Source of the DNA: Roseibium aestuarii
GTDB taxonomy: Bacteria; Pseudomonadota; Alphaproteobacteria; Rhizobiales; Stappiaceae
Direction: 5' to 3'
DNA: 64,000 nt
Assembly (NCBI RefSeq): GCF_008477545.1
Contig: NZ_VORA01000001.1
Span: forward strand, 930,001 to 994,000
Below, one piece after another: positions 21,046 through 22,784 of the stretch (positions are counted from its first letter, which is position 1; every line of letters starts with the position of its first letter). The notes below the pieces were generated by a model. That model ran no database searches and was not told the origin of the DNA. It was given only the letters and a program-made list of their open reading frames with translations. Position numbers and translations under genes: made by a program.

Positions 21046-21109
21046 GCGGGTCTCGATCCCGCTTTCCATTCAGATCCTTCCGCCGACCCCAATGCCAAAG
21101 GAGAACCCC

Positions 21110-21523
21110 ATGTCAGCCCAGGCTGGTCGTGACCTGCTTCTGAAACTCGACGAGACGGCCAGTGGAGCCTTCCAGACGGTCGCCGGCCTGCGGGCGCGGC
21201 GCATCGCCTTCAACGCCAGTCTGGTCGACATCACCACCGCCGAAAGTGCGGGGCAGTGGCGCGAGCTGCTGGAAAATGCCGGCACCCGCTCGGCCAACCT
21301 GTCCGGATCGGGGCTCTTCCGCGATCAGACGAGCGATGCGGCGGTGCGCAGCCTTTTCTTCTCCGGCGGCCTGCGCCCCTGGCAGGTGATCGTTCCCGAT
21401 TTCGGTGTCCTCGAGGGGCCTTTCCAGGTGACGGCGCTCGAATATGCCGGACGGCACGATGGGGAAGTGACCTATGAGCTGGCGCTTGAATCCGCCGGCG
21501 CCCTTGCCTTCACCGCCCTGTGA
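21110..21523 (+). CDS. GTA major tail tube protein (g9)
   Basis: The 137-residue protein, with AGRDLLLKLDETASGAFQTV and GLRARRIAFNASLVDITTAE, matches the TP901-1/GTA major tail protein family that builds the tube. The ATG at 21110 is preceded by AAAGGAGAA; the ATG at 21092 would put six residues (MPKENP) in front without its own ribosome-binding site. Confidence 0.92.
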   Translation: MSAQAGRDLLLKLDETASGAFQTVAGLRARRIAFNASLVDITTAESAGQWRELLENAGTRSANLSGSGLFRDQTSDAAVRSLFFSGGLRPWQVIVPDFGVLEGPFQVTALEYAGRHDGEVTYELALESAGALAFTAL

Positions 21524-21548: not shown

Positions 21549-21977
21549 ATGCCGAACCGACATCGCGGCGAGATTTCCGCCGGTCTGGATGGCCGAACCT
21601 GGACCTTGGTGCTCACCCTCGGCGCACTCGCCGAACTGGAGGACGCGTTCGACTGTCCGGATCTCACCAGTCTCGTCGCCCGTCTCGGCCAGGGCGGGCT
21701 GGGCGCGCGCGATCTGGTGCGCATTCTGGGGGCGGGCCTGCGCGGCGCGGGCAATGACGTCACCGATGATCAGGTGGCGATGATGCGCGGGGCGGGCGGG
21801 GCGGCGGGCTTTGCCGCCATTGTTTCCGATCTGCTTCAGGTGACCTTCGCCGCATCGGGCGTAACCCCGCCCAACAGCATGGAGGAGACGCAAGACCCTT
21901 TTGCGGAACCGAAAAAGACGCGGGATCCGGACCTGGCAGTCCAGCCGAACCCCCCGTCACCCTGGGCGGTCTCCTGA
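21549..21977 (+). CDS. GTA g10-like protein, probable tail-assembly chaperone
   Basis: The 142-residue protein (HRGEISAGLDGRTWTLVLTLGALAELEDAF, DLVRILGAGLRGAG) belongs to the GTA g10 family between tail tube and tape measure, the place of the lambda G-type chaperone. The ATG at 21549 has AAAGGAG 9 nt before it. The conserved part ends near residue 115; the remainder to the stop (PFAEPKKTRDPDLAV...) is low complexity. The Lys-Lys codons AAA-AAG within that tail are the candidate slip site for moving into the g10.1 frame. Confidence 0.85.
   Translation: MPNRHRGEISAGLDGRTWTLVLTLGALAELEDAFDCPDLTSLVARLGQGGLGARDLVRILGAGLRGAGNDVTDDQVAMMRGAGGAAGFAAIVSDLLQVTFAASGVTPPNSMEETQDPFAEPKKTRDPDLAVQPNPPSPWAVS
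21911..21917 (+). other. Candidate -1 ribosomal frameshift site in g10
   Basis: In the g10 frame the codons are CCG-AAA-AAG, giving the heptamer G-AAA-AAG. A slip by one base re-pairs the A-site tRNA-Lys with AAA; the P-site tRNA would sit on GAA with one mismatch, so it is not a perfect X-XXY-YYZ site. The -1 frame is open from 21770 to the stop at 22196-22198. Confidence 0.45.
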
Positions 21978-22198
21978 GCCTGGCGGCGAGGGGGCAGGGA
22001 TGGACACCGCAAACCTTCTGGAGCGCGACCCTTCGCGAACTGGCACTGGTGCTTGCCCCACTCGGGGGTGGCGGCGCCGATGCCGGGGTCCCCATGCGTA
22101 CAGTGGATCTGAACCGGCTGGCGCGCCGCTTCCCGGATGGATCAGCCCTCCGACAGACGATGCGAGACAAAGGACAAGCCGGCGATGACCGATCATGA
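21911..22198 (+). CDS. GTA g10.1-like tail-assembly chaperone domain, probably made by -1 frameshift from g10
   Basis: In the -1 frame relative to g10, a domain beginning VTLGGLLSLAARGQGWTPQ and continuing FWSATLRELALVLAPL fits the small rcc01693-like tail chaperone (Phage_TAC). It is followed by MRTVDLNRLARRFPDG and ends 14 bp inside the tape-measure gene. No ATG, GTG or TTG exists in this frame between the in-frame stop at 21767 and a GTG at 22049, which lies after the conserved FW..T..EL motif. A g10-g10.1 fusion of about 216 residues through the slip site at 21911 is therefore more likely than independent initiation; a CTG start (21962, 21974 or 21980) is the alternative. Confidence 0.65.
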   Translation, partial: EKDAGSGPGSPAEPPVTLGGLLSLAARGQGWTPQTFWSATLRELALVLAPLGGGGADAGVPMRTVDLNRLARRFPDGSALRQTMRDKGQAGDDRS

Positions 22199-22784
22199 CG
22201 ACCAATCTCTGGGGGCCGGAACAAGGCTGCCGCTCGACGACCTGAGGGAGTTCGACCGCCAGATGGTAGCGATTTCCGCAAGGGCCGAACGCTTCTCACT
22301 CAACCTGTCCGGCGGCATGAAGGCCGCGCTTGTGGACGGCCGGAGCCTGGAGCAGGTGATGTCCCGTCTTGCCCTCAGCCTGTCGGGCAAGGTCCTGACG
22401 TCCGCGCTGGCGCCTCTCGACGGGCTTGTGACCTCGGCCCTCGGCGGACTGACAAAGGGTCTCGGATCCAGCCTGAGCAGCGGGTTGTCCGGTCTGTTGG
22501 GGCAGGTCACGCCCTTTGCGCGCGGCGGTGTGGTCGGCGCACCGGCCTTGTTTGCAAACTGGGGAGGGGGAGGTCTGGGTCTGGCCGGTGAGGCGGGGCC
22601 GGAGGCCATTTTGCCCCTGGCGCGCGGTCTCGACGGCCGTCTGGGCGTGCGCACCGGAGCAGGATCCGGTGGATCGGTGACCATCAATGTGGTCACGCGG
22701 GATGCGGAGAGCTTTTCCCGATCGCAGGCTCAGGTTTCTGCGATGGTGGCCCGCGCCGTCGGACGGGGACGACGCGGGCTCTGA
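22185..22784 (+). CDS. GTA tail tape measure protein (g11), very short
   Basis: The 199-residue protein has a helical N-terminal half (LREFDRQMVAISARAERFSL), a Gly/Ser/Leu-rich hydrophobic middle (GLGSSLSSGLSGLLGQV) and the motif FARGGVV...GEAGPEAILPL that is conserved at tape-measure C-terminal ends. Tape length sets tail length, so about 200 residues predicts a stubby tail like that of RcGTA. The ATG at 22185 lies inside the end of the g10.1 frame (14-bp overlap), which supports coupled translation with the chaperone. Confidence 0.88.
   Translation: MTDHDDQSLGAGTRLPLDDLREFDRQMVAISARAERFSLNLSGGMKAALVDGRSLEQVMSRLALSLSGKVLTSALAPLDGLVTSALGGLTKGLGSSLSSGLSGLLGQVTPFARGGVVGAPALFANWGGGGLGLAGEAGPEAILPLARGLDGRLGVRTGAGSGGSVTINVVTRDAESFSRSQAQVSAMVARAVGRGRRGL

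Follow-up and report, generated by a model that had tools for sequence, protein, structure and literature searches.

Background

Frameshifted tail chaperones are a known kind of gene pair. In phage lambda, two open reading frames lie between the tail tube and tape measure genes, the second in the -1 frame and without a start codon, and a slippery heptamer at the end of the first, G GGA AAG, leads a small share of ribosomes into the fusion. Xu, Hendrix and Duda reportedly described in 2004 a conserved frameshift of this type in the tail genes of dsDNA phages. A second well-known -1 frameshift, that of E. coli dnaX, is stimulated by an internal Shine-Dalgarno (SD) sequence about 10 nt upstream of the heptamer A AAA AAG and yields a truncated product.

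In lambda, the tape measure protein is described as bound by the G part of the fusion, and the tail tube protein by the T part (PMC5009743). A shift measured at 6-7% has been reported for two genes in an HK97-like cluster of tail chaperones (PMC3711429), and a tail-assembly frameshift has been described in R. capsulatus phages (PMC8601537, PMC4882933). For the gene transfer agent (GTA) RcGTA, the same genes at the same place are treated as two genes, g10.1 as a separate gene (PMC9765227) and g10.5 as a separate gene named "tail chaperone 2" (PMC11409702), the word frameshift being absent from the main text of both papers; the RcGTA structure paper contains none of the terms chaperone, frameshift, g10, rcc01692 and rcc01693 (PMC7296036). 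Among the matches listed by a full-text search of the open-access literature, the only GTA frameshift was a +1 shift in a Wolbachia hydrolase (PMC10299305), and for g10/g10.1 of the RcGTA type none turned up. Since none is reported among those matches and the accessible RcGTA texts treat the genes separately, this suggests that the RcGTA-type case is new; an earlier reading of the DNA, made from the sequence only, had also taken it as undescribed for GTAs, and the same matches bear this out for g10/g10.1.

The tail chaperone genes of the window

The window (the whole stretch of DNA analysed, 64,000 nt of Roseibium aestuarii) carries the RcGTA-like cluster of a putative GTA. The name relies on the megatron and on gene order, since the tape measure match lies below its cut-off: the megatron baseplate protein scored 1587 bits with NF048004 (cut-off 800), and g11 matched NF058675 with an E value of 5.2e-39 but at 134 bits, below the cut-off of 220 (both NCBIfam). 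The g9, g10, g11 and megatron genes are all open and all match their families. The chaperone genes lie between the major tail gene and the tape measure gene, as in lambda:

21092..21523, + strand: g9, major tail (tube) protein, directly 5' of the chaperone pair (PF06199, E 3.2e-43; TIGR02126)
21549..21977, + strand: g10, zero-frame tail chaperone of 142 aa (PF11836 Phage_TAC_11, E 1.9e-27), stop TGA at 21975-21977
21902..22198, + strand: -1 frame part of the predicted fusion, linker CGTEKDAGSGPGSPAEPP then g10.1 (PF09550 Phage_TAC_6), stop TGA at 22196-22198
22185..22784, + strand: g11, short tape measure protein (NF058675, RcGTA_tape), ATG at 22185, its start overlapping the g10.1 end

The -1 frame relative to g10 is open from 21770 to 22198, hence through the 3' end of g10, and holds the g10.1 domain (PF09550, E 3.2e-11; 21968-22141 in another profile search). 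From the stop at 21767 to a GTG at 22049, which is already inside the domain, this frame contains no ATG, GTG or TTG. Both the exact -1 relation and the lack of these codons before the core had been noticed in the sequence-only reading and are confirmed. The frame relation alone is weak evidence, because overlaps of the ATGA and TAATG types likewise give -1. The window g10.1 is divergent, with a low family score and VTL in place of the FPW motif that begins the domain in relatives; the FW.ATLREL core is retained, and the frame runs open as far as the stop. This divergence leaves room, for the window copy, for decay or for a start at a CTG at 21974.

Considering the DNA of the window and of its relatives, we regard it as probable that g10 is joined with g10.1 in a unit of the lambda G/GT type, in which a -1 frameshift at C CCT TTT makes a fusion. 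The resemblance to lambda lies in the two reading frames between the tube and tape measure genes, in the second frame at -1 without a start and in a slippery heptamer ending the first and kept in relatives; by analogy, the fusion share would be small here too. The present case differs in that it concerns a GTA and not a phage, in the families (TAC_11 and TAC_6, the lambda chaperones belonging to other Pfam families), in the heptamer, which in GTA loci is mostly C CCU UUY, and in the many relatives that use a normal start.

Candidate slip sites and proposed mechanism

The tail of g10 contains two perfect in-frame -1 heptamers and a GGAGGAG, all of which had escaped the sequence-only reading. 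The elements considered are the following:

21881..21887, + strand: internal SD-like GGAGGAG, anti-SD duplex of -9.3 kcal/mol, with 10 nt from GGAGG (21881-21885) to the first heptamer
21896..21902, + strand: C CCT TTT in the g10 frame, most likely slip site, a perfect X XXY YYZ whose CCC TTT is kept in the genus
21911..21917, + strand: G AAA AAG, proposed earlier and unsupported as a slip site
21917..21958, + strand: possible downstream stem-loop, beginning 14 nt past the heptamer, -17.9 kcal/mol (50-nt fold)
21950..21956, + strand: second perfect heptamer, C CCC CCG, in frame, possible alternative slip site
21962..21976, + strand: CTG codons at 21962 and 21974, rival non-standard starts, with SD energies of 0.0 and -5.2, the second forming CTGA over the g10 stop

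The slip had been placed at G AAA AAG, which does stand in the g10 frame as described. This site was rejected: re-pairing in the P site is imperfect, it has no upstream SD (the best anti-SD energy is -0.5, and that of C CCT TTT -9.3), and of 17 same-genus loci only the window has AAA AAG in frame. The fusion proposed in that reading is supported by the relatives, and its slip site is not.

C CCT TTT is preceded by an SD-like sequence at the dnaX distance of about 10 nt. In ten GTA reading frames of the window, CCT is a rare Pro codon (14 of 216), and CCC TTT does not recur in frame (g10 being counted only to 21845). Genes for tRNA-Pro(GGG) and tRNA-Phe(GAA) are present in the genome, and these tRNAs are able to pair again, on CCC and UUU, once a -1 step has been made; tRNA-Pro genes with TGG and CGG anticodons occur as well (identities drawn from 35 loci or stretches, the genome having 50 tRNA matches). 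As a background, 46 long, non-overlapping reading frames of the window (19,002 codons) hold 37 in-frame heptamers, with no CCCTTTN and a single heptamer whose SD reaches -8 kcal/mol or lower; these frames were chosen mechanically, some being surely non-genes, and g10 was apparently displaced by a longer overlapping frame.

Drawing on the frame relation, the missing start, the heptamer, the SD, the tRNA genes and the recurrence in relatives, all read directly in the DNA, we infer the slip itself, its efficiency, the exact codon, the tRNAs acting and the roles of the products. Most ribosomes would translate g10 to its stop at 21975 and release the 142 aa protein. A minority would be slowed at C CCU UUU (21896-21902) with their anti-SD bound to GGAGG ten bases 5', and would slip back by one base, tRNA-Pro(GGG) moving from CCU to CCC and tRNA-Phe(GAA) from UUU to UUU. 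Reading on in the -1 frame would then give a protein of 216 residues (118 + 98, matching the earlier estimate of about 216), in which residues 1-118 of g10 are followed by a linker rich in Gly and Pro and then by the g10.1 domain. If the roles are like those in lambda, the chaperone may coat the tape measure g11, and the fused second part may recruit the tube subunits g9.

Heptamers in relatives

Loci with g10/g10.1 were gathered by searches of relatives, of the genus, order, family and class and of named genomes, with more regions fetched, and two phage records were added. In the order search, 246 of 397 genomes had matches and the best-scoring 150 places were used (30 loci and 120 regions). 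Both domains were located by profile, the FPW motif at the g10.1 start served as anchor, and starts and heptamers were sought between the end of the g10 domain and this anchor. From 302 loci, 249 non-identical ones were counted, four being left out (L269, L276, L284, L300) and the other 49 having g10-g10.1 DNA identical to a counted locus. As the loci were mostly picked by best score and not randomly, the shares given below are not population estimates, and the loci, being related by descent, are not independent.

The frame of g10.1 relative to g10 is -1 in 229 of the 249 loci, +1 in 16 and the same in four. Among the -1 loci, 108 have no ATG, GTG or TTG, 55 have an ATG and 66 have GTG or TTG only; start-less loci are in the -1 frame in 108 of 109 cases (the 108 include L033, which is the second copy within its genome, scores below the cut-off and is perhaps not from a GTA). 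A perfect in-frame XXXYYYZ heptamer was found in 94 of the 108 start-less loci, with 35.5 ± 4.4 expected from codon shuffles, and in the other two phases of the same loci in 9 and 11. Of the testable loci, 8 of the 49 with an ATG start have such a heptamer (expected 3.2 ± 1.5), as do 25 of the 64 with GTG or TTG (expected 11.5 ± 2.8). An earlier set of 190 loci gave 79 of 88 start-less and 7 of 40 testable ATG-start loci. The commonest class among the 94 is C CCT TTN (54), followed by A AAC CCN (19), G GGA AAN (14), C CCG GGN (4) and others (3). The sequences thus differ and the position in the g10 tail is the same, which argues for selection on slipping and not on one peptide. In the 14 start-less loci where no perfect heptamer was found, nine have an in-frame C CCT.

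Within the genus, an in-frame CCC TTT is present in all seven loci that have no ATG within 30 nt 5' of the domain. Among these seven, L013 does have an ATG further off, at -63, as well as a TTG at the domain. Of the 10 loci with an ATG inside the 30 nt, two carry the in-frame CCC TTT. At class level, 24 loci from outside the order were analysed, and nine of them combine the lack of a start with a heptamer. Seven (L254, L255, L257, L258, L265, L268 and L275) have C CCT TTC or C CCT TTT immediately 5' of the domain, L259 has G GGA AAG and L280 has A AAC CCT; no heptamer was found in two further start-less class-level loci, L263 and L279. Eight g10 relatives were found in named genomes, all alphaproteobacteria and most of them, we take it, Hyphomicrobiales. 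Three of these lack a start and carry a heptamer, namely C CCT TTC in MAGs of Hyphomicrobium (L094) and Pseudorhodoplanes (L098) and A AAC CCT in a Microvirga MAG (L101); the other five have ATG or GTG. Ten heptamer loci, from 15 picked, were scanned downstream, and an RcGTA-type tape measure match was obtained in six, always below the cut-off, and a GTA distal tail protein match in one further locus.

The W of FPW is retained in 45 of 45 start-less loci whose motif sits past the g10 stop, and since no standard start precedes it, these codons seem to be translated. In L265 and L275, the distance from the upstream stop to the domain is 3 and 4 codons, none of which is ATG, GTG or TTG.

The comparison across relatives that had been proposed as a check shows the -1 relation to recur and does not support G AAA AAG as the slip site. 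Relatives with a clear start and no slip site, named in advance as evidence against a frameshift, do occur beside the start-less ones: many have an ATG, and 41 of the 49 testable ATG loci have no perfect heptamer, which is expected if frameshift and own start replace each other.

Shine-Dalgarno-like sequences and RNA structure

Over the 94 start-less loci with a heptamer, the best SD-like stretch 5' of it has a mean energy of -7.8, against -5.7 in codon shuffles, and none of 200 shuffles was as low (duplex energies being capped at 0). The enrichment is broad, with 8-mers starting 28 to 14 nt upstream and a peak start at 18-19 nt, covering about -19 to -11; SD-like 8-mers less than 12 nt from the heptamer are rarer than in the shuffles. 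In the 59 loci where the slip is at least 18 nt before the domain, an SD of -6 or lower tracks the slip in 63% and the domain in 22%. By class, -6 is reached in 83% of 54 C CCT TT loci, 68% of 19 A AAC CC, 36% of 14 G GGA AA and none of four C CCG GG, so that some classes have a weak SD or none. These data recall dnaX by the internal SD about 10 nt 5' of a -1 heptamer; they differ from it in the site, which is not A AAA AAG, in the product, a longer fusion, and in showing no clear common hairpin.

No general downstream structure was found over the 94 loci, the mean z being -0.40 at +5 after the heptamer and -0.35 at -75. The 47 ATG-start controls fold at least as well (mean z -0.66 after the g10 stop), and downstream RNA structure was rejected as a general stimulator. 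The G GGA AA class has a downstream fold z of -1.02, with n = 14 only. GC hairpins 6-9 nt past the heptamer were seen by eye in the family loci L226, L228, L230, L247 and L282, four of which also carry a TTG. In the window, the fold begins 14 nt downstream, compared with the 5-9 nt of a dnaX-like stem-loop; owing to this long spacing and to the lack of a general signal across loci, a role of this stem-loop is unproven.

Alternative readings

It could be argued that g10.1 is a separate protein translated from a CTG start, most likely 21974, by translational coupling at the CTGA over the g10 stop. This position is that of the ATGA, GTGA and TTGA overlaps of relatives with their own starts, and it has a weak SD-like match (-5.2). 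We consider such a start improbable, since this CTG sits within the conserved domain, where it is homologous to the L/M of FPWxxLM, since the seven same-genus relatives without a nearby ATG all retain the in-frame CCC TTT, and since the strong SD stands some 90 nt farther 5', at a spacing right for the slip and wrong for the CTG.

Alternatively, the frameshift could be real and the window could slip at C CCC CCG (21950-21956), whether in place of C CCT TTT or in addition to it. This heptamer is perfect and in frame, both its codons encode Pro and it is nearer to the domain; we think it an unlikely site, given its weak SD (-3.2) and a scan that found none in the other 16 same-genus loci, in-frame CCC TTT being shared in the genus. 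CCCCCCG was seen in two other start-less loci, L200 and L216, both of other genera.

That the window g10.1 is decaying and the second chaperone not made would fit its low score and lost FPW, as well as the 28 of 45 genus genomes without a family match, but appears very unlikely, as the frame is open to the stop with its FW.ATLREL core kept and g9, g10, g11 and the megatron gene are open and match their families.

Least credible of all, in our opinion, is a reinitiation at the ATG of a TGATG over the g10 stop, which would make a shortened g10.1 in many relatives and leave the heptamers incidental: of 63 start-less loci with a g10 stop inside or abutting the g10.1 domain, 41 have an M at that place, and both phage records with the pair are annotated accordingly, but the other 22 loci, the window included, have no such M, FPW is retained 5' of the ATG, and of the 35 loci with C CCT TTN directly 5' of the domain, 22 have the ATG with an SD placed for it in one, while an SD placed for the slip is found in 80% of the 35. 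The missing SD at TGATG is supporting and not decisive here, because a strong SD accompanies the ATG in only 32% of 47 loci where this start is beyond doubt.

Frameshift and own start

On a tree of the domain (100 residues, weak), 25 switches between ATG and start-less loci were counted on the best tree. On supported branches, six independent pairs remained, with the heptamer going along with start loss in 4.3 and against it in 0 on average (median p 0.125); this is too few pairs and not significant alone, and we rejected this test of independence. In two same-genus loci, L005 and L019, an in-frame C CCT TTT is accompanied by an ATG that coincides with the domain start, FPW there reading MPW, and the two loci look like intermediates between the two modes.

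Where the g10 stop overlaps a TTG, 23 of 35 genes end in C CCT TGA and six more have the CCT one codon earlier; the CCT TGA ending is found in 0 of the 108 start-less and 0 of the 55 ATG-start loci. The TTG "starts" at such g10 tails may be by-products of a CCU slip beside the stop. Tails with C CCT TGA or CCT include L036, L063, L071, L103, L104, L112, L116, L226, L301 and L302.

A tentative reading, which we hold as possible and not as probable, is that in alphaproteobacterial GTAs g10.1 repeatedly moves between a frameshift fusion and its own start, the frameshift being mostly a CCU-centred slip, with tRNA-Pro(GGG) going from CCU to CCC, aided by an internal SD, and perhaps including a stop-coupled form, C CCU UGA. 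If so, many of the TTG starts given to g10.1 would be spurious, and the chaperone ratio that phages hold fixed would be relaxing in a domesticated particle.

The frameshift itself, if true, would have several consequences: (i) tail-chaperone frameshifting would extend from phages to domesticated gene transfer agents; (ii) the annotation of g10.1 would be corrected where it is missed, truncated or falsely started; and (iii) fused and separate second chaperones could be compared naturally in the same kind of particle. The SD, the 10 nt and C CCU UUY would also be a candidate cassette for GC-rich bacteria.

In 50,697 phage records searched by tblastn, g10.1 was found in two (E 0.01) and g10 in three (E 0.001). 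The two records with both genes have TTG/CCT TGA tails and fall in the ambiguous class. These records, L301 (MW091529.1) and L302 (MW462191.1), were deposited as phages and their gene order is GTA-like; their annotated g10.1 begins 18 nt past the start of the FPW motif and looks truncated.

As to the occurrence of the families, 17 of the 45 genus genomes have a PF09550 match, only one of them being at least 5.8 Mb in size, and 59 of 87 family genomes have PF11836. In L043, L049, L124, L165 and L197, the distance from the g10 domain to g10.1 reaches 245-313 nt, and in L043, L049 and L165 this stretch has C- and G-rich repeat-like pieces, which are possibly insertions between the chaperones.
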